From Owenia fusiformis (Eukaryota > Annelida > Polychaeta > Sabellida > Oweniidae): a stretch of DNA of 64,000 nucleotides. The translations under genes and the position numbers were made by a program. Position 1 is the stretch's first letter. Each line of letters starts with the position of its first letter. The notes below the pieces were generated by a model. It saw only the letters and a program-made list of their open reading frames with translations, did no database searches and was not told the DNA's origin. Of this stretch, positions 1-22,549 are shown one piece after another. The stretch covers positions 5,370,001 through 5,434,000 of the forward strand of contig CAIIXF020000002.1 in the NCBI GenBank assembly GCA_903813345.2, written 5' to 3'.

Positions 1-156
1 ATTCGCTCGTGCATTCGGGACAGAAAAACCTGGTTGTGTCCTCGATGAACAAACCATCAGATTGCCTGCCGGGTCCTTTGCTGCCATCTATATTTGAATG
101 TTCAGCTACTCCTGTTTTTGAAGACTCCCCGTTGACTTCCCACTGCGTGAGATATT
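1..156 (-). CDS. Alternative terminal zinc-finger exon A (partial, cut by window edge)
   Basis: The minus strand has a good acceptor (TTTTTCAATTCAG) just above 156. Read in phase 1, as for all other terminal exons here, the frame stays open to the window edge for about 52 codons. It runs through a polar linker, then FIEDTTRFFCPECTSE, the first C-x2-C pair of a finger. The linker resembles exon B (FIEDPSTFSCLKC), so A and B look like a sister pair. The junction codon would be Glu rather than the Gly of the other exons. The remaining fingers and the stop lie outside the window. The array therefore probably continues to the left. Confidence 0.65.
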
Positions 157-779
157 CTGAATTGAAAAATAAATACACACATGACTACTTAATAACGTTA
201 AATTGTTTTTTATCTTTATTAAAATCAGATAGTTATTCTTATAGTCTTATTTAGTTTATATGCATACTTTTTACAAACAATATATAATTTTTATCCTTAA
301 CAAATAGTTTTCTTTTTTACTAACAAATCTTTTTTCTTAAAAATACACGTTAAGGATTGAGCTCCTTCAATCAGAGCTCCTTCAATCATAGTATGTAGAT
401 GCGTGTAAAAGTGTCTAGAACTTATATCTAATATCAAATATATTCAGTTAATGACTATTATCACTCGTGCCAAGAGTTTTCCCTCTTTACTGTCCAACTG
501 ACTTGTCTGAATATTGCTTTAAAAATTAAAAAAAAACATATTTTTCCCTTCATTATTCTTAACTTATGTGTTCTCTTTAAGCCTATGTATTCACAGATTC
601 ATTACTTGTATTCATAATAATTTTAATTTTGTAGATTTTCTGTGTATTTTTAATACATTCATAAATTGTATAAAATTAAAACTTCCTAATTTGGTGGTCT
701 ACCAAACTGCCAAAATTACAGGTTGGGTTAAATAAAGGATGCAGAACTGTGTGTAAACTAAAACTTCTTGAGACGACCC
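157..779. other. Spacer between terminal exons A and B
   Basis: AT-rich sequence with no convincing coding signal. A minus-strand ATTAAA near 648-653 could serve as a polyadenylation signal for exon B, about 130 bases past its stop. Confidence 0.5.
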
Positions 780-1270
780 CTAATATGCATGATGCGATCT
801 CAAATGTTTCCCTCTGTCAACGATGTGAACCATTTTGTGGCACAAAATACATTGCTGGAACTTCACTTTATGCAGCTTCAATCCGGTTTTACTCGCGAAT
901 AACTTGTAGCATAAATCACACTGGAATGGCTTCACATCAGCGTGAATGGATCCATGATGGATCAATCCCTCCTCAGGTTCATCATCGAGCCTCTTTTGGC
1001 AAACATCGCAGTACTTATTATGCACGACTGAGTGATGATACTCAGAGCATGATTTAGACGGGAATTCTATGTTACATTTCAAACAGCTGAAAGTGGAAGG
1101 GTCTTCAATGAACATATCATCTTTAGAAGTGGATCCATGTGTAGCAGATGTTGTGGGATCAAGGGATTGACCCATCTGTGGCCATGGTCCACTCTGTTTG
1201 TTTAGGGATTGATCATTGTGAGCCCAAGCTGCACTTTGAGGGGTGTCAATTTGGCCAGTCATGGAGAAGC
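780..1270 (-). CDS. Alternative terminal zinc-finger exon B
   Basis: The acceptor TTCTTTATTCAG precedes 1270 and phase 1 gives a Gly junction codon (G|GC). The exon encodes 162 residues plus TAG; joined to the constant exons the protein would be 364 residues. A Gln/Ser/Pro-rich linker of about 75 residues precedes four fingers. ZF1 is C-LK-C-x12-H-x4-H and keeps the EYHHSVVH end. ZF2 is CDVC...HGSIH with a slightly longer spacer. ZF3 is CDLCYKLF...GLKLH and lacks an ordinary second His. ZF4 is CILC...HLRSH. It is the most divergent complete copy in the left half of the array: FPSKSCSEYH replaces the usual FPTSRCMEYH. Role by family: sequence-specific DNA or RNA binding; the target is unknown. 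Confidence 0.85.
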
Positions 1271-1936
1271 CTGAATAAAGAACAAAATGATTCTGATTAA
1301 AAATATATTTTGAAGTTTTATTCAAAACAATGACTTTGTTCTTTTACAAAATGGTTGCAGTCATACAAAGGGACATTATAACGTTCAAATCATTTAGGAA
1401 ATAACATTTTCACACATAGCCATACAGTGGTAATATTCTACACACCTAATAGGTGTACATGGTCTATATAGAGTATGCATGCTTTTAAACTGAAAATGTG
1501 CCAATAATCAGATAAAACACACTCAATTCTTGCAAAATATAATGAAGGGCACTGATTTCATTAAACTGCTTGTAATGCATGACCATATGAAAAAATATGG
1601 AGAAGCATGAAAACTGATCATCATTATTAATATGAGATAGTATTGCAACTTTTAAGTGCATATATTGCCTGAACATTCATAACTGCTCACATCAAATGTA
1701 TGTATTGTCTTTTTAATTCAACTTTTTTTTTTATTAATCATTAGTTTTTATACTTAACAACTCCTTCTTAACTGAGTGTATAAAATCTGATTGTGTTACT
1801 GTGATTTAACTTAATTGACTAACAAGTTTTTGTACCCATTAGTTATCAAATGTACTTGCACACTGATAAATAAAACGAGGCATTAACATGACAAAATGTC
1901 ATCACTTAGTTGACACAATATTATTAGTTCAATCTT

Positions 1937-2340
1937 AAGTCAGATTTGAATTTCTGAGAACTCTGTAGATGATTTGTTAAAAAAAAATTGGTCAATTTGA
2001 AGCAAGATTTTTTACCCTGAGAAGGTCAAATTTCAAATCTAAAGTCAGATTTGAACTTCTGAGAACTAGGTAAATTAAAAAAAGACAGTTTTAAACGGTC
2101 ATTGAAGGTCAAATCTTTTTTGACCTTGAGAATCTTAAATTTTAAGTCAGATTTGAACTTCTTATAACTTGTATATGATTTTGAAAAAAATATTTGATCA
2201 ATTGGAAGCAAGTTGAAATAAGACCCTTTTGACCTTTTTTTTACCTTGAAATGGTCATTGAAGGTCAGATCCTGAATGTAAAGTCAGATTTGAACCTTTG
2301 AAAACTTGTAGATGATTTGGAAAAAATGAAGTCAGTCTAA
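1937..2340. repeat. Degenerate tandem repeat, four units of about 100-140 bp
   Basis: The anchor AAGTCAGATTTGAA recurs at 1937, 2042, 2144 and 2281. Each is followed by a variant of 'gagaacttgtagatgattt' and an A-rich run. Units are diverged, so the array is old. Confidence 0.75.
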
Positions 2341-2444
2341 ACAGACTATTTGTTAAGTTATTGGAATTTTTAAGAATTTGTTACAGATGCCAACCGCCAC
2401 AGATGCCAACCGCCGCTCGCCACCCGAAGATCACCAACCACCGT

Positions 2445-2510
2445 TACCTCTGCTACAAAAAATGGAGACCATAACAATATGTCACGACATCCTGGTGGTG
2501 ACATAATAAA
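2445..2510. repeat. Short dispersed repeat, copy shared with 22035-22100
   Basis: Both copies share a block with 'ataacaatatgtcac' (or 'ataacaatgtgtcac') followed by 'ggtggtgacataata' in the same orientation. One copy lies in intron 1 of the zinc-finger gene, just below the exon 1 donor. Probably the end of a mobile element. Confidence 0.55.
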
Positions 2511-2995
2511 AATAAAACAAATTTGCTCAGCTGGAGTATAACTACATATATGGAGTCTTCATGAAATTCCAAGATAATTCTTAGAATTGTAATAGATTAA
2601 ATATACAGTATGACAAAATATATATCGAATAGCAGTATCATTTTGGATTACAGAACATAAAATTATGAATCTAAATTAAAGCTGTCGTTCTAAATTGTAG
2701 TCATATTGTCCTTTCAACTAAATACAGTTTACTGTTCATGTTCCGTTAAATTCTTCAGCATATATAAAAGGCATGAGATATACAATCTAATATAAGTGCA
2801 GACTTTTTCAATTCAAAATGTGAAAATGAAGTTTAATAATTTTATCTTATAGCCATTCACTCAATTTTTGCCTCATCTACGAAAAAATGATATCCAATAT
2901 TAGTAGTAGCAATGTATATCCCATCTCATATATGAATTTGCCTCTCTGGGCCTAATATCTAGAAACTGAATTCACTCATGTTTATATAAACGACT

Positions 2996-3086
2996 CTAGA
3001 ACTGTCCCTTAGAAGCATGCCTCTTCATATGTGTGGCTTTATTTTGTGAAGGTACAAGTTTGTTGCAAATATGACATCTTATTTCC
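2996..3086 (-). pseudogene. Relic of a terminal zinc-finger exon (3' end only), relic C
   Basis: Minus-strand translation gives EIRCHICNKLV, then PSQNKATHMKRHASKGQF and a stop. This is the last finger (C-x2-C...H-x3-H) and tail of the array exons, closest to exons E and G. Upstream of 3086 the similarity stops abruptly, and the bases that should encode fingers 1-3 are replaced by unrelated AT-rich sequence. There is no acceptor or linker. It is therefore a truncated exon copy left by deletion or partial duplication. Confidence 0.8.
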
Positions 3087-3299
3087 TATAAGCTGTTTAT
3101 TTCCTAATTGTTTAAATGTCAAAGTTCGACAGGAATACACAATCAACGGCTTAAATTGATAACTGTATGAACAAAAATGATATTTATTTATCTTATTGCC
3201 AGACAAACTGCCTTCCATAAATTGCGTACAACATGCGTACAACAGTACACGTTGGCCCGATGCTTCATTTAAAAAATTCCTTCAAAATCACTCAAGTGT

Positions 3300-3685
3300 C
3301 TAAAACTGTCCTAGAGAAGCATGTTTCTTCATGTGGGCTGCTTTATGTTGCATAGCAACAAATTTGTTACAAATATGACATTGCAGCTCCTTTGTTTTAT
3401 GACGTTTCAACCCGCTATCTGTTTTAAACAACTTAAAACACAATTCACATTGGAATGGTCTAAGTCCCGTATGTTTCAATCCATGGCTTTCACGATTGGT
3501 TTCATGATCAATACGTTGGTTGCAAACATCACAGAATGCATTGTGTACAACTGAGTTGTGATATTCCATACAGCGTGATGTGGGAAATACATGGTGGCAG
3601 CGTTCGCATACAGAGTCAGGTTCCTCATTGGGGGCTTTCACTTGTACATGTGCTATAGGATTCCCAAGTCCCCAGTCTCCCAATC
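3300..3685 (-). CDS. Alternative terminal zinc-finger exon D
   Basis: The acceptor ATCTTCTTTAG sits above 3685; phase 1 gives Gly at the junction, then LGDWGLGNP. It encodes 127 residues plus TAG (329 with the constant part). Fingers: ZF1 CERC-x12-HNSVVH with FPTSRCMEYH at about residues 27-48; ZF2 FCDVCNQRIDHETNRESHGLKH; ZF3 CELCFKLF...GLKRH, with the usual second His missing; ZF4 CHICNKFVAMQHKAAHMKKH. The tail is SLGQF-stop. ZF1-ZF2 are nearly identical at base level to exons H, J and K. AATAAA-type motifs occur on the minus strand near 3182-3192, about 110 bases past the stop. Confidence 0.88.
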
Positions 3686-4549
3686 CTAAAGAAGATATAA
3701 AAAATTAATGTTCAATGATGTAGCACTTAGGCGTGGATGGCAGATGCTTCCTCGTAACTTTATTTGAGATACACCAAAGTACAGTAAAACCTGTCTAATC
3801 CAGACACAGGTGTTTACATTTCAGGTTTTTTAAACATGTGAGTCAACGGGAGATTTATAATAAATCTGAGACCAAGAAAAAGTGTTCATTTTTAGAGATT
3901 TTTAGACTCCACTGTTTAACTAGGTGTTACAATTACGGAAAAATTATTATCGATTGAATACACTGTTAAAACTTTTTAAACATTGCAAACCAAAAAGGGG
4001 TTAACATCTAAGAGGTTACAAAAAAAACCATCCACCTAAGAAGATTGTTTTGTTTGTTCCCTTATATTTACTGACTTACCCAAGGGAAATTGTTCTATGT
4101 TTGATTGTTGTATTTGGTATATCATAGAAAAAGGCACTGGGGACTAGCTATTAAAGCTATTTCATAAAAATGCCTTGATTTCGCTTATTTGACTCTAATT
4201 TCTGCATCTCTAAATTTTAAATACAACAATTATTATTACAATAGAGATTTCTAATCCATTTCAGGGACATGTGATTATTATAAAGATATCTTCCGACATA
4301 AACACTCTCTATTCACGAGTTGCAATTGTTTATATATTTTTATACACAATTTATTCAATGTTAAAATCACATATAATACACATCCCTGTGGTTTAAAATG
4401 AAAGGCTTAAAAATTATAATGAGAAAACTCAGCCACAATTTTTACAGACTTTTTGAATATCTTTCTAAAATATATAATCAAGCATGTCCTCTATAAACCT
4501 CTTTTCATGAGAAAATCTATAGCATTTCTTTCAACTAAAATGTCAGTAT
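3686..4549. other. Spacer between exons D and E
   Basis: No gene seen. TACAGTAAAACCTGTC at 3780 is one end of the pogo/Tigger-like MITE family found complete at 6622-7060; I cannot find a clear matching end. A minus-strand AATAAA near 4347-4352 may serve exon E. Confidence 0.5.
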
Positions 4550-4935
4550 CTAAAATTGCCCTTGGGAGGCATGTTTCTTCATGTGTGCTGATTTATTTTG
4601 CACCGACACAAAATTATTACAAATGTGACATCTTATCTCCTTTGATTTGTGACGTTTGAGCCCACTATCTGTCTGAAACAACTTGAAACACAAATCACAT
4701 TGAAATGGTCTTAATCCTGTATGTTTCAATCCATGGTTTTCAGGGTTTGGCTCCCCATCAATACGCTTGTTGCAAACATCACAGAATCCATTGTGAACAA
4801 CCGAGGTGTGGTACTCCATGCAGCGTGATGTGGGAAATACATGGTGGCAGCGTTCACATATAGAATCTGGCTCCTCATTGGGGGATTTCCCTTGTACATA
4901 AGCTGCAGAGTTCCCAAGATTCCAGTTTCCCATTC
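4550..4935 (-). CDS. Alternative terminal zinc-finger exon E
   Basis: The acceptor CATCTCTTCTTCAG precedes 4935. Phase 1 gives Gly, then MGNWNLGNS. It has exactly the length of exon D (127 residues plus stop). ZF1 is CERC...FPTSRCMEYHTSVVH; ZF2 FCDVCNKRIDGEPNPENHGLKH; ZF3 CDLCFKLF...GLKRH; ZF4 CHICNNF...AHMKKH; tail SQGQF-stop. Its ZF2 (GEPNP) groups with exon G, whereas its linker groups with exon D, so it looks like a mosaic. The decayed copy F lies immediately upstream, and its linker (GLGNW) is also of this type. Confidence 0.88.
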
Positions 4936-4996
4936 CTGAAGAAGAGATGAAAAATTAATACGCTGGGTGCTAAAAAAATACACTGATGTTACTATA

Positions 4997-5817
4997 CAGC
5001 GTGATGTGGGGAATATAAAGTGTGAACAACCGAAGTGTGGTACTCCATGCAGCGTGATGTGGGGAATATAAAGTGTGAACAACCGAGGTGTGGTACTCCA
5101 TGCAGCGTGATGTAGGGAATATAAAGTGTGAACAACCGAGGTGTGGTACTCCATGGAGCGTGATGTGGGGAATATAAAATGTGAACAACCGAGGTGTGGT
5201 ACTCCATGCAGCGTGATGTAGGGAATATAAAGTGTGAACAACCGAGGTGTGGTACTCCATGCAGCGTGATGTGGGGAATATAAAATGTGAACAACCGAGG
5301 TGTGGTACTCCATGCAGCGTGATGTAGGGAATATAAAGTGTGAACAACCGAGGTGTGGTACTCCATGCAGCGTGATGTGGGGAATATAAAGTGTGAACAA
5401 CCGAGGTGTGGTACTCCATGCAGCGTGATGTAGGGAATATAAAGTGTGAACAACCGAGGTGTGGTACTCCATGCAGCGTGATGTGGGGAATATAAAATGT
5501 GAACAACCGAGGTGTGGTACTCCATGCAGCGTGATGTAGGGAATATAAAGTGTGAACAACCGAGGTGTGGTACTCCATGCAGCGTGATGTGGGGAATATA
5601 AAGTGTGAACAACCGAGGTGTGGTACTCCATGCAGCGTGATGTAGGGAATATAAAGTGTGAACAACCGAGGTGTGGTACTCCATGCAGCGTGATGTAGAG
5701 AATATAAAGTGTGAACAACCGAGGTGTGGTACTCCATGCAGCGTGATGTAGGGAATATAAAGTGTGAACAACCGAGGTGTGGTACTCCATGCAGCGTGAT
5801 GTAGGGAATATAAAGTG
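4997..5817. repeat. 53-bp minisatellite, 15.5 units, grown from a zinc-finger exon
   Basis: Fifteen full 53-bp units (4997-5791) plus 26 bp of a sixteenth. On the minus strand each unit reads from the CAC of ZF1 (CHFIFPTSRCMEYH) to the end of TSVVH. The breakpoints share CAC microhomology. Units differ at two positions (gtggg/gtagg and aagtg/aaatg). From unit 3 to 13 they alternate, giving a 106-bp higher-order dimer. Because 53 is not a multiple of 3, the array is read in all three minus frames, and none contains a stop. Each unit has a TATAAA on the plus strand. Confidence 0.95.
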
Positions 5818-5921
5818 ACAGCTTTCACAAATGGCATCTGGTTCCTCATCAAGGACCTATCTTTGTTGTGTCATTGGAGTTTGTAACATTTGGGACTTTC
5901 CATAGGGCCAGTTTCCCAATC
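4997..5921 (-). pseudogene. Decayed terminal zinc-finger exon F, with in-frame stop and minisatellite
   Basis: The acceptor CATTTCTTTAG above 5921 is intact. Phase-1 reading gives Gly, then LGNWPYGKSQMLQTPMTQQR, then TAG, and the same frame resumes with VLDEEPDAICESCHFIFPTSR. The linker and first half of ZF1 are thus clearly exon-like, but a stop would end translation about 21 residues in. The frame then enters the 53-bp minisatellite. Fingers 2-4 are absent: below 4997 there is unrelated sequence and then the acceptor of exon E. If spliced it would give the constant region plus a short tail without fingers. Confidence 0.85.
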
Positions 5922-6263
5922 CTAAAGAAATGAGAAATCAGATTACACACAGAAAAACTTGATTGGATTGATTTTGAACCTCTATTCATGATTACGATGT
6001 TGGCTTAGATCGCAGGGGTTTCAAAATATTATATATTAATTATGCGCTTGAGGTGATTGTTTTGTTAAATAAAAGTTGCTCTCCATCTGCTGTTATTTTC
6101 TTATTCTTATTCAGCTTTATCATTTTGATAATACTTCTAATATTTTCAGCCAAATTTAACACTTAGACATCCTGTCAAGTACCAGCTTAACATATACTGT
6201 ACATGAACAACATTTGGTAAGTGTATATCAAGAGTAGAAAATGACAAACTTAAAAGTACTAAT

Positions 6264-6345
6264 GTCATTTCTGCGGGCAATATAGTGAAATATTGGACCT
6301 TGGGCCTTTGGTCCAATATTTCACTATATTGCCCGCAGAAATGAC
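6264..6345. repeat. Perfect 36-bp-arm hairpin (MITE-like)
   Basis: Arms 6264-6299 and 6310-6345 are exact reverse complements, with a 10-base loop. The outer end (agaaatgacgttattg followed by actattaatt) is shared with the hairpin at 49223-49264, so this is a dispersed family. Confidence 0.9.
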
Positions 6346-6621
6346 GTTATTGCACTATTAATTCATAATATGATGAAATGAAAACAGTTTATAAAAATGT
6401 ATTATTTTCAAAACCAAAACAATCACAAATTCAAAAAATATATTCCATAATGTTAGTAACTTTTATTCAGGTATTGTGGTCCTTATAAATTCTAGCTCCA
6501 TGAAATTTATTTCCAATGAATTACATCTCCAGATATGATTAACTAAAACAAAATCTTAAGTAAAACAAGTTAAATGGTTTTATTTTAATTGTTACCATAT
6601 AATTCACCTATATTTTATATG

Positions 6622-7060
6622 TACAGTAAAACCTGTCATGACACCTCACAATGTGAACACTTTTTGTTGGTCAACTTTTTCAAACTGACATAGACTTTCA
6701 TGTCAAGAAACCCTCAAAATGTGAACACTTTTTCCTGGTCACCTTTTTCAAACTGACATAGACTTTCATGTCAAGAAACCCTCAAAATGTGAACACTTTT
6801 TGTTGGTCAACTTTTTCAAACTGACATAGACTTTCATGTCAAGAAACCTCAAAATGTGAACACTTTTTGTTGGTCAACTTTTTCAAACTGACTCGCGACT
6901 CTCATGTCATGAAACCTCTCAATGTGAACACATTTTGTAGGTCACCTTTTTCAAACTGACTCGCGACTTTCATGTCAAGAAACCTCAAAATGTGAACACC
7001 TATCAATCCAACACTTTTAGCTGGTCCAAATGATGTTCAGATTAGACAGATTTTACTGTA
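6622..7060. mobile_element. 439-bp pogo/Tigger-like MITE with internal tandem repeats
   Basis: Ends are TACAGTAAAACCTGTC and ...GACAGATTTTACTGTA, inverted and including flanking TA, as in pogo/Tigger-type Tc1-mariner elements. About five internal units of about 70 bp (anchor 'aatgtgaacactttttg' plus 'tcaaactgac') lie between. No transposase. Related ends or copies occur at 3780, 8157, 9126 and about 13449. Confidence 0.85.
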
Positions 7061-7081
7061 TTTAAACTCTTCAACGGATTC

Positions 7082-7497
7082 TCAAAACTGTCCCTTTGAA
7101 GCATGCTTCTTCATGTGTGCTGCTTTATTTTGCATCTGTACAAGTTTGTCACAAATATGACATCTTATTTCCTTTGTTTTATGGAATTTCAAGCCGCTAT
7201 CTGATTGGAACAATTTATAGCACAAATCACATTGGAATGGTTTTAATCCTTTATGTCTCAATCCATGTATTGCAGGGTTTGGTTCTCCATCAATACGTTG
7301 GTTGCAAACATCACAGAATCCATTGTGAGCAACCGAGATGTGATATTCCATGCAGCGTGATGTGGGAAATACATACTGGCAGTATTCGCATATAGAGTCA
7401 GGTTCCTTATTTGAGGATTTTCCTTGTACATTTTCAAGTTGTGCCACTGGAGGTTGTGATAGCATTTCAGAGTTTCTTAGATCCCATCCTCCAATTC
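7082..7497 (-). CDS. Alternative terminal zinc-finger exon G
   Basis: The acceptor CAATTTTTCTTTAG precedes 7497. Phase 1 gives Gly, then IGGWDLRNSEMLSQPP. It encodes 137 residues plus stop (339 with the constant part). Four fingers: CEYCQYVFPTSRCMEYHISVAH, FCDVCNQRIDGEPNPAIHGLRH, CDLCYKLFQSDSGLKFH with no ordinary second His, and CHICDKLVQMQNKAAHMKKH. It ends SKGQF. The linker is about 10 residues longer than in D and E. A complete MITE (6622-7060) lies only about 20 bases past its stop, so its 3' untranslated region probably includes transposon sequence. Confidence 0.87.
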
Positions 7498-8459
7498 CTA
7501 AAGAAAAATTGAAAAATCAGATTACAAACATACAGAAAACTTTTGGGTCACACCCTCCTGATTACAACTGGTTTAGGTTGCCAAAATCTAAGAATCTATT
7601 TCCCATGTTAGAAAAGAGCTTCATAAATACACTTTGATTTTGATCTAGCCTAAATTAAATAAGATTCATGCATTCAGGTACCTAATCAGAACTGCATTAA
7701 CAAAATGTTATGTTTTCATAAAAACACTGCACCTAAGGAAAGTCAGCCCGATATAAAGGTCTATGTTAAACTCTTTTGAGAAAATGTGATTTAAAAAGAG
7801 GTGATTATTGAATTAAAGTGTATGGAATTGTTTAATCTGTCAATTTAATTTTATGTACTGATAGCAGTAACTGTGCAACATTTCTCCGTTGAAATACAGA
7901 TATTTCTAATCCAGAAAATTAAATGTTACAATGACAAGATGGAGGATACACATATAAAAAAGATAAAGTGTCTTTATTTAATTTAATGCAGTCACATCCC
8001 ATCATTTCTTAGTAATCATGAACTCTTATTGCACTTTGTGAATGTGTCTCCTCTTGATTCAAGTTGAACATTATCTGTTCCATTCTTTCCGTTCCAAGTC
8101 CAGTTATGATTATATATGGACGTGAATCTCTTCATTTGCTCAACTGGGGTATACAGTACAGTGAAACCTGTATATCCAAATTCATCTCCAATCCAAACAC
8201 CTCTCAATATAAACACCTTTTTCTTGTTCCCAAATTGTTATTTCCAATAAACTCACATATTTGAAAAAAAAGAAATGTGAACACCGGCTTATCTGAACAC
8301 TTTTCTGGTCCAAGTGGTGTTCAGATTAAACAAGTTAATAAAAAGTAGTCTGCTTGACACAATTAGCAGTAATGTTTACTGATATACTCCACATGTAATG
8401 TTCCTACATTATATCTAGTTGATTTAACTAAAACATGTCTTTTTCTTGTCTTTATAACA
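7498..8459. other. Spacer between exons G and H
   Basis: No coding signal. It contains a degenerate MITE at 8157-8336. Small open frames at 8016-8264 overlap that element and look accidental. Confidence 0.5.
8157..8336. mobile_element. Degenerate copy of the TACAGTRAAACCTG MITE
   Basis: Begins TACAGTGAAACCTGTATATCC and carries 'aacacctctcaatataaacacc' and 'ctggtccaagtggtgttcag', matching the inner ends of 6622-7060. The right terminal repeat has decayed. Confidence 0.65.
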
Positions 8460-8869
8460 TTAGCCAGTAGACATGTGTTTCTTCATATGTGTTGCCTTGA
8501 TTTGCCTTTGGACCATTTTTCCACAAATGTGACATCTTATTTCCTTGGCTTTGTGATGCTTAAGTCCAGTTTCTGTTTGAAATAATTTCAAACACAATTC
8601 ACATTGGAATGGTTTCTGTCCAGCGTGTTTCAATCCATGTATTTCACGATTGGTTTCATGATCAATACGTTGGTTGCAAACATCACAGAATGCATTGTGT
8701 ACAACCGATGTGTGATATTCCATGCAGCGTGATGTGGGGAATATACGATGACATATGTCACAGGTACGGTCTGGCTCTTCTTGCGTCTGATCATTCAGAG
8801 AACCAGGGTCAACTTGGGCAGCACCCATATCTTGTTTGTAGTCTGCTGGCTGAACATTGATCCAACCTC
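8460..8869 (-). CDS. Alternative terminal zinc-finger exon H
   Basis: The acceptor TTGTTTTATGATAG lies above 8869; phase 1 gives Gly, then GWINVQPADYKQ. It encodes 135 residues plus TAA (337 in total). ZF1 CDICHRIFPTSRCMEYHTSVVH; ZF2 FCDVCNQRIDHETNREIHGLKH; ZF3 CELCLKLFQTETGLKHH; ZF4 CHICGKMVQRQIKATHMKKH, ending MSTG. The ZF1-ZF2 block is almost base-identical to exons D, J and K, while linker and ZF3-ZF4 differ. Confidence 0.88.
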
Positions 8870-9125
8870 CTATCATAAAACAAACAAAGCAGACATTTAC
8901 ATATTATAAAACTATATTTCTACAACTATAGTACTTTTTACAATAATATGTACTTACAGTCTACAGATTATGCATGTGGTGCTATAATACACATAAATAT
9001 GAGTAAAACCAACACAGGTTAGATAAACATAAAGTCTTACAATATACACATAAATACAAATCCTTAACATTTAGCAGAAATAAATTAAAAGTTAAAACTG
9101 AACCTTTCCAACTATCATTTTCAAA

Positions 9126-10071: not shown

Positions 10072-10072
10072 T

Positions 10073-10473
10073 TCAAAATTGTCCTTTAGCTGCATGCTTT
10101 TTCATATGAGCAGCTTTAGTTGATCTTGGTAACATCTTGTGACAAATATGACATTGAATCTCCTTTGTCTTATGATGCTTCAGTCCTGTGTCAGTCTGGA
10201 ACAATCGGTAACACAAGTCACACTGATATGGCTTCTGTCCCTTATGCTTCAATCCATGATTTTGTCGATCACTCTCCGCGTCTAAACGTTTGTTACAGAT
10301 ATCGCAGTATCCTGAATGTACTATAGTTGTGTGGTATTCCATACACCTTGATGTTGGGAATATTCGTTGACAGTGTTGACAGAGTGAATCAGGCTCCTCT
10401 TGGGTGTCGGGTGTTGGATTATAGTTTTGCAGCCCATGACCAGCAAAATCAGTAGAATTCACGTCCCATAGCC
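10073..10473 (-). CDS. Alternative terminal zinc-finger exon I
   Basis: The acceptor TTTATTCTTATGGTAG precedes 10473; phase 1 gives Gly, then LWDVNSTDFAGHG. It encodes 132 residues plus stop (334 in total). ZF1 CQHCQRIFPTSRCMEYHTTIVH; ZF2 YCDICNKRLDAESDRQNHGLKH; a linker KGQKPYQ resembling TGEKP; ZF3 CDLCYRLFQTDTGLKHH; ZF4 CHICHKMLPRSTKAAHMKKH; tail AKGQF. It is more diverged from D, H, J and K at silent sites than they are from one another, so it may have escaped recent exchange. Confidence 0.87.
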
Positions 10474-11002: not shown

Positions 11003-11448
11003 TTATATTTGTCCTTTGGCAATATGCTTCTTCATATGTGCTGATTTTGATTGCTTTGGCATCATCTTGCAACATACAAAACACTGTATTTCCTTTGCTT
11101 TATGAAGGTTTAAACCCACATCAGTTTTAAACAATTTGTAACATAATTCACATTGGAATGGTTTTTGTCCAGTATGTTTCAATCCATGGTTTTCACGATT
11201 GGTTTCATGCTCAATACGTTGGTTGCAAACATCACAGAATGCATTGTGTACAACCGATGTGTGATATTCCATGCAGCGTGATGTGGGGAATACTGTGCTA
11301 CACAGTGAGCACATAGAATCGGGCTCTTCTGCAAACTCCTTATTTGGTATGTTGGGGAGTGCAGATAGATCTGGTCTGGGTTGCGATATCATCCCTTTTT
11401 GTGTCATGCTGGGTAAGAAGTTGTTCGGGTTATATTCTGACCAGGTGC
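11003..11448 (-). CDS. Alternative terminal zinc-finger exon J
   Basis: The acceptor TTGTTTATTTCTACAG lies above 11448; phase 1 gives Gly, then TWSEYNPNNFLPS. It encodes 147 residues plus TAA (349 in total). ZF1 CSLCSTVFPTSRCMEYHTSVVH; ZF2 FCDVCNQRIEHETNRENHGLKH; ZF3 CELCYKLFKTDVGLNLH; ZF4 CFVCCKMMPKQSKSAHMKKH; tail AKGQI. The bases for ZF1-ZF2 match exons D, H and K closely. The linker is the only place with substantial length change. Confidence 0.88.
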
Positions 11449-11812: not shown

Positions 11813-12264
11813 CTACATGTTTGGCATGGCTACTTCTCCTTTCTTTGCGTGCCTTCTCATGTGCTCTGCCTTAGATTGCTTTGACATCATCTTACTACAT
11901 ATTACGCATCTTATCTCTTTTGCTTTATGTAAACTTAAACCAGATTCAGATCTGAACAATTTCATGCACAAATCACATTGAAATGGTTTTAATCCAGTAT
12001 GTTTCAATCCATGCATTTCACGATTGGTTTCATGATCAATACGTTGGTTGCAAACATCACAGTATGCATTGTGTACAACCGAGGTGTGATATTCCATGCA
12101 GCGTGATGTGGGAAATACTTTGTAACACTGGGGGCATACACTGTCTGATTCCTCAAGCCCCTGTTGATCTCCTGAATATACTTGGTTTTCATCTAAGTGT
12201 GATTTTGGAGTTGCTTTTCTTTGGGCTCTTAACTGTTCCATTTCCATGTTTGCCAGCCAGTGTC
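11813..12264 (-). CDS. Alternative terminal zinc-finger exon K
   Basis: The acceptor AATTATTTTTTCCAG precedes 12264; phase 1 gives Gly, then HWLANMEMEQLRAQRK. It encodes 149 residues plus stop (351 in total). ZF1 CPQCYKVFPTSRCMEYHTSVVH; ZF2 YCDVCNQRIDHETNREMHGLKH; ZF3 CDLCMKLFRSESGLSLH; ZF4 CVICSKMMSKQSKAEHMRRH; the tail AKKGEVAMPNM is slightly extended. The ZF1-ZF2 block again matches D, H and J. The linker here is charged rather than aromatic after the G.W start. Confidence 0.88.
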
Positions 12265-12924: not shown

Positions 12925-13439
12925 CTACGATAAACTGTTAGCTTCTGCACCATGTTTTTTCATATGTGCAGATTTTGATTGCCTTGCGATCATTTTCCCG
13001 CAAACATGGCAGCGCATCTCCTTGAGCTTATGCCTAGTGAGTCCTGACTCAGTTTGAAACAATCTGTAACACAAGTTACATTGTACTGGTTTCTCTCCTT
13101 TGTGTTTCAATCCATGATGCTCCCGTTCATTTTCATCATCAAGTCTTTTGTTGCAGACATCACAAAAGCCATTGTGAACTATAGCAATGTGGTACTCCAT
13201 ACAACGTCCTGTTGGGAACACTTTTGAACAAATCGGGCAAACTGCATCCGGTTCATCCATGTTAGTAATATCAACATCTACACTGATTGCACTTGCAAAG
13301 GGATCAGCTAGAGGGGATCTGGATCTTGCCTCCTTTGGCCTCCCTGCCACATATGGGCTACCAAGTGGTCTAATTCCTTGCCATGCAAACCCCTCTGGTC
13401 CAGTCGTACTTGAGGCATGGTGCTGGTATTCCAGATATC
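12925..13439 (-). CDS. Alternative terminal zinc-finger exon L
   Basis: The acceptor TTCACTGTTCTTGCAG precedes 13439. Phase 1 gives Gly, then YLEYQHHASSTTGPEG. It is the longest terminal exon: 170 residues plus stop (372 in total), with an Ala/Ser/Arg/Pro linker of about 70 residues. ZF1 CPICSKVFPTGRCMEYHIAIVH; ZF2 FCDVCNKRLDDENEREHHGLKH; linker KGEKPVQ; ZF3 CNLCYRLFQTESGLTRH; ZF4 CHVCGKMIARQSKSAHMKKH; tail GAEANSLS. Silent-site divergence from the D/H/J/K group is visible. The pyrimidine tract of its acceptor lies in a CAGTGAAACCTG transposon end. Confidence 0.87.
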
Positions 13440-13664: not shown

Positions 13665-13711
13665 AGTGGATCTGGGAGGGGGGGGGGTGCATAGACCAAG
13701 ATCCGCCCCTG
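13665..13711. mobile_element. Internal-deletion remnant of a GGCGGATCTGGG element
   Basis: Ends 'agtggatctggg' and 'agatccgcccctg' flank a G-run. Same ends as the fuller copy at 23295-23576; another half lies at about 28000-28085. Confidence 0.6.
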
Positions 13712-14296: not shown

Positions 14297-14430
14297 TCTT
14301 TTCACGTTAGATCATGGTTTTTGGATATATGGAGTTTTGTTTTTCTTGACTGGTATGCACTTAGAGTTTGTTTTTTCTTGCTAAGTTCCATTACAACTTT
14401 TGGTCCTTTCCCTTTGGCATATGTGCTTGG
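14297..14430. repeat. Dispersed repeat, first of two copies (second at 17100-17242)
   Basis: The copies share 'tagatcatggtttttgg', 'cacttagagtttg' and 'tttttggtccttt' in the same order and orientation. In the second copy the minus strand stays open for 49 codons with a lysine-rich tail ending PKTMI; the first copy is frameshifted. Confidence 0.6.
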
Positions 14431-16389
14431 ATATTGACATTTTTGCTTAAATTGCATTTCAAAGTGCTTTATCTATTCTTGCCGATACATGTTGAGCATC
14501 CAATTGTCCCTAAAGTACTTGTCCGAACATATGATGAGTCTATTTTGAAAGCTTCTGTTTTGATATGATGCAGTGTGCTAAGCTCATCACTTTAAATTGT
14601 TGAACAATCTTTAACTCCTCTGCTGTTGAATGCATTCCCTATAGCATATAGAATTTTGGATTTATATCCCACATCTTTTTTATTCAGTACTAAGATGTTT
14701 GTATAAATCTGTAAGAAAATATTCAATAAGCATGCATCCTTCTTTAAAGGACTTCATTTATGCTTATTTATCATAAATACACTTGCAGCAAAGATGAGAG
14801 CATGGGCTTGTAATGGCTATGGCTACAATAGATCTACATCACTGCCCTTTCAGTTCCAATCTCCACTTGTAACTTGTAAGATTGTAGGAATGCGCCACTG
14901 TTTGAACTTGACTAATACACAATTATTTTGTCAGATTATGTACCAAATGAACTGAAATCAATAATTTCCTGGTGTTTTACTTTTTTCAAGCCATGGTTTA
15001 GTACCGCATGATTCATCAATTGATACAACCTAACAAATTTGAATGGTTGAATTTAACCAAACTCATTTCATTTGGGGATGAGACCTATAAATAACACTAT
15101 TCTGAAATATGAAAATATGATATTAATATATATATTTCAGGATGAAATAATGGGAAAGTCAAGCAAAAACTACACTTTATATCTTGGGATGCTGTTAAGA
15201 GAAACTTTTGCCAATATAATCGTACATTCCAATGGCTGAAACATTATAATCAAGTGTTCATAATAAATCATATTAAATCCACTGCTTGCTCTCCTTGTTG
15301 GTATCTCCATAGTTTGCATGTACAGCTTCACATGATTTATACCAAACTCCTTTTTATTTTTTCTCCATATATTCTATTGCATATTTTAAGAGAGAACATT
15401 TCCATATATCTCCATATTTGTTGTATGTCCTACTGCAAATTTTACAGCTGTAGTCCATTTTATTTTTTTCAGTGTTTTCCTTTGTCTCTGGTGAAGGTAG
15501 ATAAATCCGCTCTAAAATGCATGCTTCTTGTTATAAGATGGCCAGGCATCTCTGATCGTGCACCCTCATTTTCAATACTTAGGATGAGAAATACATATGG
15601 ATGAGTGTGGGTGTGAATTTATGAATGTGGAGCAAGGACTCACATACCTATACATTACAAGGAAGAAGATACTAAAAAAACTGAATTCCAACAAATAAAC
15701 TATACTCCAAATCAAAACTGACTGCATAAGTTCCAATTTCTTTATTTTGAAAACATTTGGAGGTTAAAATATCAATATTTGACATTAATCCAAATTTATT
15801 TGTTCAATTCTGACATCTCCTTATAGCTGGATGGCTCCTCAAGAATACATATAAAAACACAATATCAGAATTTGATACAGAATAAATGTTACTCTTTGAT
15901 GATCCAGACTGAAACTTATATTAGACTTAGATGGAGCATAAGATGTTTTACCATTATACACACGCTGCCACCAAATGTGATTTAATGTAAATGTATCACA
16001 CAGAAACTGTGTTGACTTGGACACTACAAACCATATTACTTTACTCGATAGAATTTAAAAATATATAGAGTTAAAACCATGTGTCACATTTGATGACATG
16101 ATTTTGCAATATGGATATTCAAATATATTCATAATTTTTATTTAATTGTAGGTTAATGTAATGTAGTGCTACAAATTGTATTTCTTAAAGGTAACCTTTG
16201 TTTTCTCCATCACTAACAATGTAACATAATACCTGCAATTCTTCATGCATTACACCTACTTTATAAATTACAATTTACAGTCAATTAACTACATACTGAT
16301 AAAGGAATGGCATTCGATCCCTGGGTTTATTTCAAAGTATTTGAAAAGACAGTAAGGCTTGTATTTAATTTTAAAACTCTTTATGTTCA

Positions 16390-16800
16390 AGTCGAAAAAA
16401 AGATTGCTAAAACATACCCCATTCTCTTACACTTCGTAGCATCGAAGGTCGCATTTTAGGTGGGAGATTTGTAAGTACTTATTTATTTTTGTCTTCACAG
16501 AATATGAGCCTCTTTTTCATAGAACCATTGACCATTCTATGTAGAGATAGGTCTGGTACCACTTTGTCTAAACATTCATTCTGAACACGATAACAATTTT
16601 CTCAAATCTTCTAGACACCCCAACAATTTTTTGAAAAAAATATAATGCTTCAAAAAAAATCCTCATATTTTCCACAATTTCAGCTCAACAATTGTGGAAT
16701 ATTGAATAGATTAACAGTAAAATTGTTAGACATCATCCAGACACTTCAGTTTCGAAAATTAATGAAAGACTTCAACAAAAAGTTTTATTACGTCCATGTG
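16390..16800. repeat. Left arm of a diverged ~400-bp inverted repeat around exon M
   Basis: Blocks such as 'accccattctcttaca', 'attgaccatt', 'tctcaaatctt' and 'atgaaagacttc' recur as reverse complements, in inverted order, at 18770-19185. The two arms enclose about 2 kb that includes exon M. Confidence 0.7.
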
Positions 16801-17099
16801 TAGAAATATTTTATTTGATTATTGCACATAAATACAGAGGTACTATACTGTAGATGTTAATGTTTTAGAAAGTCTATCATTGTAAGCCTTGAAGAACAAG
16901 TACCAAATTGAAAGCCAAAGTTTTTATGAATAGCAATTACATACTTCTTATAAATAAGTAGATGTAATAAAACTGTCACTTAGATCACTTTAACTTTTTT
17001 TACACAGTACAATATTTTCACCTATGGGACATTCCATGCAAAAACCATCATAAACCATTTCCAAAAATTGAATGTTTCATTTAGTACAACGTTTTCATC

Positions 17100-17242
17100 T
17101 AGCTCTTTTCGCTTTAGATCATGGTTTTTGGGATATATGGGTTTATTTTTCTTATGACAGGTTTACACTTAGAGTTTGCTTTCTTGGTGGTTTTCTTTAC
17201 AGTTTTTGGTCCTTTACCTCTGGTACCAGTATTTGCGCTTAG
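17100..17242. repeat. Second copy of the dispersed repeat at 14297
   Basis: See the first copy. Its minus strand encodes a short basic open frame (GKGPKTVKKTTKKANSKCKP) with no acceptor in phase; origin unknown. Confidence 0.6.
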
Positions 17243-17582
17243 ATTTGGCAAAAAATAGAACATGTGGTACTTGTCCCTGGATTATATCAAGTTCTGGCAA
17301 AGATATGTTTGACTGCAAAAGTCAGGTGACCTAACTAATGAATTGTACTCTGGCATAAAGCAACTAATAAGCAGGGTTATTTTATAAAACATACACACTT
17401 TAAAGTAAGGTATTTTATTCATTATAAATACTGTTACTGATCCTCAAAAAATACATAAAAATGTAAGTCAATTCTTGGAAATATATAATACAGGAAGTGT
17501 CAAAGACAAGTCACAAATGCACAATGTCTATGTACAAAATTGAAAGATCATGAGAGGAGATACTTCTAGTGTCAAAGAGAAG

Positions 17583-18001
17583 TCACAAATGTACATGCCT
17601 ATGCTTCTTCAATGACGCACGCCATCTAAACTTTTTCCCACATAAAGGACAAAGATATCTTTCTTTTTCATGAAGTCCTTTTTGGTGTTCTTTCAGGGTC
17701 TTTTTATTTTCAAAACGTACGCCACATGGATTACATACATATACTATGTGTCTGTGTTTACTGTCCACATGTCTCTTTAAAGCGTCCTTGGTTATGAAAC
17801 CTTTCACTTCACATTGTGGACATTTGAGTAACTCTGCGTCATGGGTTGATCTCATGTGGCAGCACAGATTTTCCTTGCTGGTGTACACTTTGCCGCAAAG
17901 TGAACAGGTGTTCTTTTTAGAAACCAAACCACGCCGTGAAACATTATATTTGTACCGACGATTTGTCCGGGGAGCTGTAGTGTAACAAGCCAGAGACAGA
18001 C
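17583..18001 (-). CDS. Alternative terminal zinc-finger exon M, nearest to the constant exons, canonical fingers
   Basis: Two acceptors are possible, both in phase 1: CACTCCCTTTCAG above 18001 (better pyrimidine tract) and TTACACTACAG above 17974. It encodes about 138 residues plus TGA (340 in total, or 331 with the inner site). Four ordinary C2H2 fingers: CSLCGKVYTSKENLCCHMRSTH, CPQCEVKGF...RHVDSKH, CNPCGVRFENKKTLKEHQKGLH, and CPLCGKKFRWRASLKKHRHVH. Unlike the other exons, all four are complete and there is no FPTSRCMEYH. It is probably the oldest or least duplicated member. A tRNA-derived sequence sits just upstream of the acceptor, and ~400-bp inverted repeats flank it. Confidence 0.82.
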
Positions 18002-18029
18002 CTGAAAGGGAGTGTGCTAAATTCAATGC

Positions 18030-18098
18030 CCAATATGGGAATCGAATGCAGGACCTTCCACACAAGAGTCTGAAGCTCTACCACTTGCGCTTTCAAAA
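18030..18098 (-). tRNA. tRNA-derived sequence (SINE head or tRNA pseudogene)
   Basis: The minus strand has an A-box-like 'agtggtagagc' (18075-18086), an anticodon-arm-like stretch, and a B-box-like 'gcattcgattccc' (18037-18050) at tRNA-like spacing. I cannot fold a clean cloverleaf and no anticodon can be assigned, so a functional tRNA is unlikely. It ends about 30 bases above the exon M acceptor. Confidence 0.5.
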
Positions 18099-18769
18099 CT
18101 TGAGTCAACACAACTTGCTATCCAAGGTCATAACACATGTTACAGAACCAAACATTTCCCTTTGATGTAAAAACAAAAGAGTGTAAATTATCACACAGCA
18201 TGGGTTTTGAAATTACGTATATCTTTGTAATTTTGGAGAATTCTCGCATCAGTAAAATAGTTTTTCAGTGCCAGTTGCTTTGCTAGAGACAATTGTCATG
18301 GTAAGTATCTGGTATTGAGGTGTCCATGAGATAAAGGGATATATTGTTTACATGGCTGAGTATGCTGATCTCTGGGATCACAGGACATAACCAAAACATA
18401 TCAACTTGCTAAAATATTTTTATACATCAGAATCAAGTCAATTCATACAAGTAAGGAAAATGAAGAATCTGAAGATTAGGTATATCGCAAACACACAATG
18501 AGGCTCATGAAGCAGACGAGCACACTCTCACTCAATTATCTGCACCTATATACAGATCGAGTCACTTTCAGGTCACTCTCACGGCTTTGTGTGATATTAC
18601 AAGGTAGGCAACTCTTTTATGTCTTTATGATGTTAAGGACTAAGAAATTGAACTGTCTGCATTAGAGAAACTAAGTTTCAATCCACATACATTGATTTCC
18701 CTTAGTCTGAATTAGAGTTCAACAGGTGAATGTCCGATGCCCTGAAAACTCCATACACCGAGCTCTTCA

Positions 18770-19185
18770 TACAATTTCAACAAAAAATTAATTTCTCTGA
18801 AGTCTTTCATTGATTTTGGAAACTGATGTGTCTGAAGGATGTATTAAGATTTTCAATCTAATCAATATTTCAAGATGACTGAGGTGGAGTTGTGGAAAAT
18901 ACGATGATTTTCATGAAAATTATCACTTTTCAAAAAATGACCTGCTTCCTATAAGATTTGAGAAGTTCTATATCGTTTTCAGATGAAATGTTGAGATGTA
19001 GTGATACTAAAGTTATCTCTTCATATAATGGTCAATGATTCTTTGAGAAAGAAATGCTCATTTTTTGTCAAAACGTTGAAATAAATTAGCACTAACCAAT
19101 CTCTTGCCTTAAAAACTGATCATAATGTATACTTTGGTGCTACGAATTGTAAGAGAATGGGGTTTGTTAAAAGCAGAAATACTTT
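18770..19185. repeat. Right arm of the inverted repeat around exon M
   Basis: Reverse-complement partner of 16390-16800, roughly two-thirds identical by eye, with indels. It is too diverged to be a recent insertion. Confidence 0.7.
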
Positions 19186-19267
19186 TGTTTGTGCCATTGA
19201 TTTTGTGGTACCGAAGCATTACAATAAAATTTTCCCGAAGACATTTTATAGTGTGCTTAAAAACAGG

Positions 19268-20042
19268 TACCATATTCTCTGTAATTAGTGCCCAGGGCAT
19301 TTAGAAAATTGAAAATACATCATTCAGACAATTCTAATAAGTGCCCAAATATGAAAGAAATCAGAAATCCAGAGGGATTTCATGTATGGCAATTTTTCTT
19401 GCTAAGCATGCGCCTTATTTCAACATACTTTTATAATAATGATAAGTATTGTTATTGGAGAGAATACAGTAAAGATCGCTTAGACAATATTGCCAGTGAT
19501 TGAAGACCCGTCTATGTCTAATTTATTTTCAGAATGCCCACTTTGTCTTATCACGGATAACCTTCAATATTTCCACTAGAGACTGTTGGATATCGATCTA
19601 AAGTGATACCTTATTTTTAATTTGATGAGAGATCATCATTTTTCATGCAAAAGTTGTAAAAATGTTAAAAAGAAACCAGATTGTTCATTACCTTGACAAT
19701 TGCGCAGAACATCTGCGCAGTTAAGCTTTCAAAATTACTGAATGCTGATAAAGAACAATTCCTTCATTCATTATGTTTTATTCTGAGACAATATTAGCAT
19801 AGTATGGTGTGGGAAGCACCCATCGATAGATATTTATCGAGAGGATGCATAGAATTATAAAACGCTTTGAGTTTGCAGCAGTTTAGGGTAAGTACTCTAT
19901 TACCGCCCGCTCATGGATTTTCGGAAATATGATTTTTTCTGATAGATTCTTCAATTCTTATTGGTTCCTTGATATTTCTGGACTTTGTGAAGTGGGGTGG
20001 GCGCTTATTAGAGGGTGGGCGGTAATTACAGAGAATAAGGTA
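19268..20042. mobile_element. 775-bp DNA element with ~26-bp terminal inverted repeats
   Basis: The left end TACCATATTCTCTGTAATTA is mirrored at the right by TAATTACAGAGAATAAGGTA, followed inward by GTGCCC or GGGCGG. An additional inner end ('tactctattaccgcccgc', 19894) suggests a nested or rearranged copy. No transposase. Confidence 0.75.
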
Positions 20043-21044
20043 TTTCATATTTACATAGAAATATAGCAATAATTTTTGCTATTTATTTTTACTAAAATGA
20101 CATTAGGCCTATCTTCATTTGGAATAATTCATTTTAATTTCAACATATCCAGCCTAAACTTAGTTGATGAAGAAGTCATAACTGAATTTTAATAGGTAAT
20201 GTTAGAGTGTCACAATACATTTCAGACAGACCCAAGAAATAGCCAAATATGGTTATGTCTATGTAAAATCTGATTTTTGTGACTAAATATTTTGGAATCA
20301 TACCTAAAATCAACAAATTGCAGTTTGTTACATGTTTTTAGTTTTTTCCGTGAATGGAATGTAAAGAACTTTCTGCATTATCTGCCATAATATCTGAGTA
20401 AGCCACCTAATGTTGATTCTAGAAACTAACAACTAGGTATTTAAGTAACAACAAACAACATATCTTTCCATCAAACCATGTGAACACTACGTTAGGAATA
20501 CAGAAGCCAGATTCAATATGGTATCAATTTGTAAAAACAAAATTCTAAGAGGTTTTCAAAATTAGTGAAAGGCTATGCTATAATTTGCTAATCTTATTTG
20601 TAAGCACCTACAACTAATAATGACAAGAAGGTCTATTCTCCCTCATTTTCAGATTCTCCTTTATTTCAGATTCTCCCTCATTTTTATTAGATTTTTTGAA
20701 TGCCATTCCTTTGATGGAAAAAGTACAAGTTTCACATTCCAAAGAAAAAAAGAGTAGAATTGATTTCTTGTGTGTTTGTGTATATTTTAACGTTCCGATT
20801 GTGTTTATCTATAGAATTGACAGGCCACTCAAAATACCTTGTATCGCCAAAGTGTGATGTTTGGATCTACAAAATCTGAAACTAAAATTCATATTTCACG
20901 CTGATATTTCAAACATTTCATTTCATTGTTTATAAGTGACTATACTGCTCAACAGAAATCGAAACATTAAAACAATAAGATGCAAGAAAAAAATATAATT
21001 AGGAATAAATAAATGTATTTGTGTTTGCCAAAATCAAGTTATCA

Positions 21045-21390
21045 TTGGAAGAAAAGAGATTAAAAAATACTGTTATAAATGAAATACTTTTTTTCCAATT
21101 GGATAGCACACAATCTAATTAGTTTGCAAGAACTATATTTGTGCTTATTATTGAAAGAAGATTCAAACATGATTGTTAATTACTTTTTTCCAGATTGGAT
21201 TTAGAACTTTCAGGCTACGTATTTTCCAAGAAGAAATGTATCTGCGATTAATGATATCAATTTAATTTCAAAAAAGGAGATTAAAAGAATACTGTTATCA
21301 AATACTTTTTCCAGATTAATTAGCACTTTCAAATTCATCCAAGAGGAAACGTATTAGTGAATGCCAATATCAATTCATTATGTGACATCT
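21045..21390. repeat. Degenerate tandem repeat in intron 2
   Basis: Three related stretches share 'gagattaaa(a)gaatactgttat' and 'atactttttccagatt', spaced roughly 110-130 bp. Confidence 0.5.
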
Positions 21391-21467
21391 CACTTGGAAC
21401 AGAAATAAAAAACGAAAGGAATGTGAATCGTTGTACTTTTTCCTCATGAAAAGAAAAATATACCAAC

Positions 21468-21644
21468 CTTGATTCGGGTCTGTGTATCCGTCATTACTGT
21501 TTCCTGGTGTCACGCTTGTTGGTTCTTCGACTAAAATTTCACTTTCTCCAGGTTCTACTTTGATATATTTCTCCTCCGTGCTAGCTTCTGGGGCTGGAGC
21601 AGCGCGCCTTTTTCTTGATTTACTTGGTGTAGAATCAGGCGTCG
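21468..21644 (-). CDS. Constant exon 2 of the zinc-finger gene (linker, basic motif, SUMO-type site)
   Basis: The acceptor TTATTTTTTACAG above 21644 and donor CAAG|GTTGGT below 21468 define a 177-base exon, phase 1 to phase 1 (59 codons). Translation begins TPDSTPSKSRKRRAAPAPEA and ends NDGYTDPNQ. KSRKRR is a likely nuclear-localisation signal. YIKVEPGESE contains the psi-K-x-E SUMO consensus (IKVE), common in transcription factors. The rest is acidic and proline-rich, probably disordered. The donor starts GTTGGT, which is weaker than GTAAGT; a weak donor could leave room for regulated choice among downstream acceptors (inference). Confidence 0.85.
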
Positions 21645-22122
21645 CTGTAAAAAATAAGAGAATATAACAGAGGTTTCACTAGAATTTCTCATAATAGAAA
21701 TCATGAATTTAACATTAAAAAGTGCCTAGCAACAGGCGATTTTGTGAAAACAACTGGTGAAAATCCCATATTGTCTGCTGCTAATGAAACTCCTGTGTAA
21801 GTAGGCTTTATTCCATTTCTGACATGAGGAACATGGAATATAGCGTTGTTGTTTCACTAAATAATTTGACTGAACTTTTATATGTTAGACCTGACACCAA
21901 ATACATATTCAAAGGAATGCAGTGACTGGCTGCATTAAACTTCCATCAAATATAACCTACTCATAAAGCATTAACATGCAAAAAGTCACCAACTGTCATT
22001 TGCTACAGATGCCAAAAGCTGACAGCAAAACGCTGAACACCATCCACAAAAAAGTTGGAGATCATAACAATGTGTCACTACATATGGTGGTGACATAATA
22101 GCACTCTACTGTATGTACTTAC
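21645..22122 (-). other. Intron 1 of the zinc-finger gene
   Basis: GTAAGT donor at 22117-22122 and TTTACAG acceptor at 21645 onward. It contains the dispersed repeat copy 22035-22100; nothing else seen. Confidence 0.75.
22035..22100. repeat. Dispersed repeat copy shared with 2445-2510
   Basis: Same-orientation match containing 'ataacaatgtgtcac' and 'ggtggtgacataata', about 20 bases below the exon 1 donor. Confidence 0.55.
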
Positions 22123-22549
22123 CATATTGTTGTTGCTGCTCCGAATTGTAATAGCCCCCACCCCCCGAGTCTTCATCATAAATACTGGGCTTTGGCATTT
22201 CATCAAACGATACATTAGATGTTACGTTTTGGGGGTATGCATTTGGATCAATATCCCGACCCTGTCTATTTCTTTGACGTTTATGAGGTGTCGCTGATGA
22301 TGTTGATGAAGGTGTACTGGGATTAGTATCCATTTCAGGAGCATACTGGTCTGGCTGTGTTACAGGCTTCATAATTGTTCTGTGCATTTTCACGACTATT
22401 TCTTTGGCATCCTGTCCAGGTGTAATACATATTATTCCATCTATTTCCAGAGACGCATCAAATGTAACATGCTGTGTGCAAAGTTTTAAGATAGCGTCCT
22501 GTATCAGGGATGTTAATACGTTAGACCCCATTGTTGTTTGTTCACTCAA
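22123..22549 (-). CDS. Constant exon 1 of the zinc-finger gene, start codon
   Basis: The ATG at 22549 opens a 142-codon exon ending in a strong donor (TATG|GTAAGT), phase 1. Residues 1-60 (starting MSEQTTMGSNVLTSLIQDAI, then LEIDGIICITPGQDAKEIVV) look like a small folded alpha/beta unit I do not recognise. Residues 70-100 are Pro/Ser/Thr-rich, with basic PHKRQRNRQGRD. The end is Gly/Tyr/Gln-rich. No BTB domain is present, unlike Drosophila lola, mod(mdg4) or tramtrack. I chose this ATG because the frame opens just upstream, no other exon is needed, and a second in-frame Met follows at residue 7. An E2F-type site lies about 160 bases upstream. Confidence 0.85.

Follow-up and report, generated by a model that had tools for sequence, protein, structure and literature searches.

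A predicted gene of Owenia fusiformis with a constant N-terminal module and an array of alternative zinc-finger terminal exons

A stretch of 64,000 nucleotides of the Owenia fusiformis genome (C2:5370001-5434000, termed the window, to which positions given without a prefix refer) carries a predicted cassette gene that lies wholly on the minus strand and consists of two constant exons followed by an array of zinc-finger terminal exons. The contig on which it is found, C2, represents 7.2% of the 498 Mb genome. The reading that we consider likely, judged from the DNA sequence, is that this one gene would make a set of transcription-factor isoforms, each of which would combine the constant exons with a single terminal exon out of about 15. 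The sequence itself shows the two constant exons, phases that are compatible, a single module for the array, purifying selection on the terminal exons and the same layout in paralogues. In the proposed mechanism the two constant exons would encode a linker and an N-terminal module of some 50 residues, and the phase-1 donor at 21468 would be joined to one of the terminal exons, each of which would bring its own acceptor, finger set and stop codon. Splicing would be alternative and mostly in cis, each transcript would end after its own finger exon, and the finger sets of different terminal exons would bind different DNA sites. By analogy with BTB in lola, the constant module probably self-associates or brings partners or cofactors.

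The constant part comprises 586 coding bases over the two exons and ends in phase 1. The original prediction had the phase right and the length wrong, its figure of 604 bases having been counted from 22549, 18 bases before the ATG. The features of the constant part are:

22358..22522, minus strand: N-terminal module of about 50 amino acids, one of 50 aligned genome copies
22123..22531, minus strand: constant exon 1, coding from the ATG at 22531, 409 bases, donor ATG|GTAAGT, holding the N-terminal module
21468..21644, minus strand: constant exon 2, 177 bases, acceptor TTACAG|, donor AAG|GTTGGT, end phase 1

Ten complete terminal exons and one that is cut by the window edge were confirmed on the same strand, in agreement with the original prediction, and two broken relics lie among them:

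17583..18001, minus strand: terminal exon with four classical C2H2 fingers, of another type and least certain in its membership (Pfam, phase, acceptor)
12925..13439, minus strand: terminal exon of the four-finger type (phase, alignment, acceptor score)
11813..12264, minus strand: terminal exon of the four-finger type (phase, alignment, acceptor score)
11003..11448, minus strand: terminal exon of the four-finger type (phase, alignment, acceptor score)
10073..10473, minus strand: terminal exon of the four-finger type (phase, alignment, acceptor score)
8460..8869, minus strand: terminal exon of the four-finger type (phase, alignment, acceptor score)
7082..7497, minus strand: terminal exon of the four-finger type (phase, alignment, acceptor score)
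5743..5856, minus strand: broken exon relic that retains finger 1 only and passes into a 53-bp minisatellite made of the same sequence
4550..4935, minus strand: terminal exon of the four-finger type (phase, alignment, acceptor score)
3300..3685, minus strand: terminal exon of the four-finger type (phase, alignment, acceptor score)
2996..3076, minus strand: broken exon relic with finger 4 and the stop only, lying among intact exons
780..1270, minus strand: terminal exon of the four-finger type, second subtype in the exon tree (phase, alignment, tree, acceptor score)
1..156, minus strand: terminal exon cut by the window edge, with a phase-1 acceptor at 156 read by eye, running into L010 to 9729

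The phase-1 acceptors of the ten complete finger open reading frames (ORFs) were placed at 1270, 3685, 4935, 7497, 8869, 10473, 11448, 12264, 13439 and 18001. In all ten exons the best-scoring acceptor upstream of the fingers was the one in phase 1, and the earlier statement that each exon gives a total divisible by three and ends in a stop held in every case. A random 150-nucleotide stretch gave an acceptor of a given phase at a score of 14, the lowest of the ten, in 18.5% of draws, and at a score of 17 or more in 1%. Because the exons descend from each other, the ten phase-1 acceptors amount to fewer than ten independent observations. Poly(A) signals were found after all ten exons and also in 84% of control stretches; they were therefore uninformative and were dropped as proof of separate 3′ ends. 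The minisatellite mentioned above (window 4997-5817, minus strand) consists of 15.5 copies of a unit made of the relic's finger-1 coding sequence and is open in several frames.

The array, for which at least eleven exons had been claimed, proved to extend beyond the window, and one of its ten complete exons in the window is of another finger type. The next 20 kb past the window contain the remainder of the cut exon and five further finger ORFs, four of which have phase-1 acceptors that were read by eye. The whole array therefore comprises 16 finger exons over ~34 kb, its far end lying 38 kb from the module and 16 kb past the window. Of the 16, 15 have a clear phase-1 acceptor, and all share the strand of the constant exons. 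No second module near or inside the array was found in the genome-wide module search. An uninterrupted ORF of 1339 codons inside the array (L010:2537-6556, plus strand) resembles, from reading its sequence, a putative Ty3/gypsy-type retroelement polyprotein, and this ORF and the two exon relics point to exon birth and death in the array.

The gene appears, from sequence searches, to be one of a large family sharing the module rather than a one-off, with dozens of related front ends, mostly on one chromosome. Searching the genome with the module gave 56 matches at E-values up to 10, of which 48 were on C2, and 44 of the 50 matches at E ≤ 0.001 were on this contig; the copies are related to each other, and no simple probability attaches to their concentration. 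A search with a four-finger exon, in which 150 of 1606 candidates were scored, returned 61 strong finger exons (E up to 1.3e-16), all clustered on C2. When these were related to the nearest of the 44 modules on C2, 50 of the 61 lay on the same strand and 3′ of the module and none lay 5′; the other 11, which all lie at C2 35.35-35.37 Mb, were also 3′ of the module but on the strand opposite to it. With three finger queries, 152 of 198 merged matches on C2 lay on the 3′ side of a module of the same strand and no more than 100 kb from it, whereas random module positions (500 draws) gave 13 assigned matches on average and 58 at most. At least one finger match was assigned to 29 of the 44 modules, and three or more to 17; these counts are lower bounds, being based on 150 candidates per search and on the matches listed, yet they include matches in long ordinary finger ORFs.

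The layout of the paralogues was also read directly. All paralogue acceptors that were read are in phase 1 (five of five in L011, five of five in L060 and one of one in L063), as are the exon 2 donors of two paralogues. Other arrays carry other finger sets, an example being the five two-finger exons within 7 kb in L011. Eight pairs of modules are arranged head to head, 4-11 kb apart (for instance C2 34398042/34404640), and no tail-to-tail or tandem pair within 12 kb was found among the 44 modules on C2; shared promoters are possible for the head-to-head modules. In L048, L050 and L051 the module occurs as tandem pairs within ORFs, and there is no zinc finger among their Pfam matches. Five two-finger matches, 16-49 kb apart and each with one TAG in the matched stretch, were also seen on the minus strand at C2:575-692 kb.

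The strand of the finger exons bears on a different account, in which the terminal exons would be separate primary transcripts, from either strand, that are trans-joined to the constant exons as in mod(mdg4). Trans-splicing is documented for insect mod(mdg4) and lola (PMC4667647), and a paralogue at C2 35.37 Mb seemed to have 11 opposite-strand exons. This paralogue lies at a piece of C2 (~35348600-35373600; L002, L012 and L013) that is bounded by runs of N, and these runs cut the local exon 2, its start being on the minus strand (L002) and its continuation on the plus strand (L013). Because exon 2 is split across the N runs in opposite orientations, the simplest reading is that this is a mis-oriented assembly piece, and a set of opposite-strand, trans-spliced exons at this position was rejected. 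Once re-oriented, the paralogue would have 21 finger matches (10 minus and 11 plus, including one with a stop codon inside the aligned part and one fragment). The remaining 50 of the 61 strong exons are on the same strand as their module and 3′ of it, as are all 16 finger exons of the present gene with respect to the constant-exon strand. Note that this strand evidence bears on opposite-strand, not same-strand, trans-splicing. Overall, we regard trans-joining as unlikely here.

It could also be that the array is a cluster of independent zinc-finger genes, with small 5′ exons of their own, that happens to lie downstream of an unrelated gene. Finger genes are often clustered, and a methionine precedes the first finger in seven of the ten window exons. 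The other three have no methionine before their fingers, the phases of the terminal exons match the constant donor, and the genome search placed no further module inside this array. In addition, the order of module and then array recurs for six modules; outside the mis-oriented piece, the exons are 3′ of their module and share its strand. A cluster of separate genes is considered improbable.

The fingers themselves were studied in an alignment of 14 exons of this gene, which included the doubtful exon at L009:9426 and left out the cut exon and exon 17583. The cysteine and histidine ligands of fingers 1, 2 and 4 were kept across all 14. In classical C2H2 fingers, the DNA-contact positions are -1, 2, 3 and 6. 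These positions were more variable than the other non-ligand columns, with 1.79 versus 1.31 bits (p 0.023), and in 32 exons from six genes the values were 2.34 versus 1.84 bits (p 0.035), the effect being modest in both cases. The contact strings of fingers 2-4 differ in all 15 four-finger exons of this gene. For nine window exons, the proportion of nonsynonymous differences (pN) was below that of synonymous differences (pS) in 36 of 36 pairs, which share exons, and the ratio of nonsynonymous to synonymous substitution rates (dN/dS) was 0.12-0.31 in the 15 pairs with dS under 1.5. On these comparisons, purifying selection is acting on the nine window exons. An array that is mostly dead, with one or two terminal exons in use and the rest decaying duplicates, might be suggested by the two broken relics among intact exons, the exon without a good acceptor (L009:9426-9857) and the retroelement-like ORF, but it is highly doubtful given that pN is below pS in all 36 pairs, that dN/dS is low in the 15 measurable pairs and that the zinc ligands are kept in the 14 aligned exons.

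The class of the fingers was examined by profile and structure searches. One four-finger exon matched zf-H2C2_2 at an E-value of 1.6e-5, which is below the Pfam cut-off, and exon 17583 matched zf-C2H2 at 1.9e-13, which is above it. The Pfam matches and the invariant cysteine and histidine columns indicate C2H2/C2HC fingers in the variable ends, as in lola-type genes. No FLYWCH match at E-values up to 1 was present in the four of the ten window exons scanned, with exon 17583 considered for the best 25 of 31 families. A structure model of the fingers from a nine-row alignment had a mean predicted local distance difference test score (pLDDT) of 66.4; the best Foldseek match had an E-value of 0.027, none was ≤ 0.001, and TM-scores were ~0.2. 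Of the 156 matches, the 50 listed were all zinc-finger entries, which is a hint at most.

Several observations count against a set of isoforms made from one gene. It may be that not all of the fingers read DNA: in the 14 aligned exons, finger 3 shows C, C and H but no obvious fourth zinc ligand, and the contact residues of finger 1 are nearly constant in the main subtype. No convincing acceptor was found for the outer exon L009:9426-9857, which lies behind an inserted repeat. Exon 17583-18001 is of the other finger type and could belong to something else; its nearest relative, at C2:7681627-7681962 on the minus strand, is 70% identical, contains one TGA and has no listed module within 100 kb. 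In a mirror control, in which all module strands were flipped, 71 of the 198 finger matches were still assigned; this value is high because the modules often lie in head-to-head pairs, and the nearest-module test was added for that reason. Among the matches on C2, 46 of 198 could not be assigned to a module, 11 being in the mis-oriented piece and ~20 at 24.1-24.3 Mb, where long finger ORFs form a block. Finally, 15 of the 44 module loci had no assigned finger match; the downstream DNA of three of these was read, and two hold a finger ORF and one has none in 9.5 kb.

The history of the exons was explored with a tree of 32 exons, 15 from this gene and 17 from five paralogues, in which branch supports were mixed (0.44-0.95). 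Nine exons of this gene, namely the eight nearest four-finger exons and L010:8025, clustered together. Of its other six, five grouped with a single exon from the 35.37 Mb paralogue, and the last was placed elsewhere. The nearest neighbour lay in the same gene for 19 of the 32 exons, with 8.4 expected by chance. The tree suggests that two exon subtypes already existed before the two genes separated, and that tandem duplication later enlarged one of the sets.

The identity of the N-terminal module was sought by several routes. The consensus of the module, from 50 of the 56 genome matches, is IQDAVLKLCTQ...SLEIDGIICVSPG....IVVKMHRTI.KP. The two constant-exon ORFs of the window had no Pfam match at E-values up to 1, and the 50 module copies matched seven families weakly and below the cut-off (best E-value 0.024; DUF1930 in eight of the 50, best E-value 0.028), which were taken as chance. 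No NCBIfam match was obtained for the window protein. A sequence search of the PDB found nothing with the module profile and one match at an E-value of 6.9 with the single protein. A model of the module from a single sequence gave a helix-hairpin-helix with a pLDDT of 61.9, which is poor, and a fold search of the PDB with it returned no match at E-values up to 10. An H-R/K-x-V/I-L/M likeness of the module to the BTB core led to a test of a BTB origin. This origin was rejected: aligning the module by hhalign with six BTB domains, out of 146 matches to BTB in this genome, gave a probability of 0.2% over 8 aligned columns, and BTB was not among the seven weak Pfam families of the module copies. 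The BTB domain of lola, mod(mdg4) and ZBTB proteins thus appears to be absent from the constant part at the level of sequence. These results bear out the original description of an unrecognized, BTB-less N-terminal module, and the search of the N terminus against protein families suggested at that stage produced nothing above weak Pfam matches below the cut-off.

Two further ORFs in the window were noted, both with putative labels from reading the sequence. On the minus strand at 27288-28857, ORFs of a neighbouring gene resemble EGF- and fibrinogen-type domains, and on the plus strand at 45693-46193 a 166-residue ORF resembles the GIY-YIG end of a retroelement.

The closest known designs are those of lola and mod(mdg4). 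In lola, at least 20 isoforms share a BTB N terminus, and most of their ends are zinc fingers of differing DNA specificity (PMC5127561). The present gene shares, at the level of gene layout, the constant N-terminal part and the alternative C-terminal ends, but lola carries BTB in its constant part and none was found here, lola is one gene whereas dozens of paralogues share the module here, and lola isoforms mostly have two fingers, compared with four in most exons here. The insect mod(mdg4) combines common 5′ exons and a BTB domain with alternative ends, in at least 31 isoforms; most of the ends are of the FLYWCH type, and some are encoded on the opposite strand and trans-spliced (PMC4667647). 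Common 5′ exons and many alternative ends are again the likeness, at the level of layout; in contrast, searches of the present gene turned up neither BTB nor, in the four exons scanned, FLYWCH, and its exons all lie on one strand. The lola/mod(mdg4)-like layout that had been predicted is nevertheless supported, with constant exons followed by a terminal array of compatible phase, 15 of 16 acceptors sharing one phase. By this analogy the gene would work like lola or mod(mdg4) and is not a member of either type, no BTB having been found.

Lineage-specific growth of C2H2 repertoires has been described in cephalopods in a study that, by its description, retained PF00096-matching proteins and, for each gene, the longest isoform (PMC12513265). 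That design would not show terminal-exon arrays, whereas growth here is by exon arrays behind a shared module. Judged by titles and the openings of abstracts, none of the open-access papers listed in literature searches described this module and finger family, and a description may still be published elsewhere.

Taken at the level of predicted genes, the array appears to be an undescribed route by which a few genes could yield many DNA-binding factors. A bolder proposal, which we put forward only tentatively, is of a separate large cassette system, in which an undescribed module of about 50 residues that may pair with itself and its paralogues stands at the head of ~44 loci on a single chromosome, their interchangeable finger exons probably numbering more than 100, and in which isoforms of different genes would pair and so recognize a very wide range of composite DNA sites. 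If the isoform reading is true, the solution seen in lola, of one constant partner domain and many spliced DNA-binding ends, would have arisen with an unrelated and unnamed module, and such a gene design would then have expanded to a large family that lies mostly on one chromosome. The greater part of such a repertoire would escape surveys that retain a single longest isoform for each gene or that count proteins matching PF00096. Studies of structure and interactions would have a defined target in the module, and the exon arrays would provide a natural series for how new DNA specificities arise by exon duplication.

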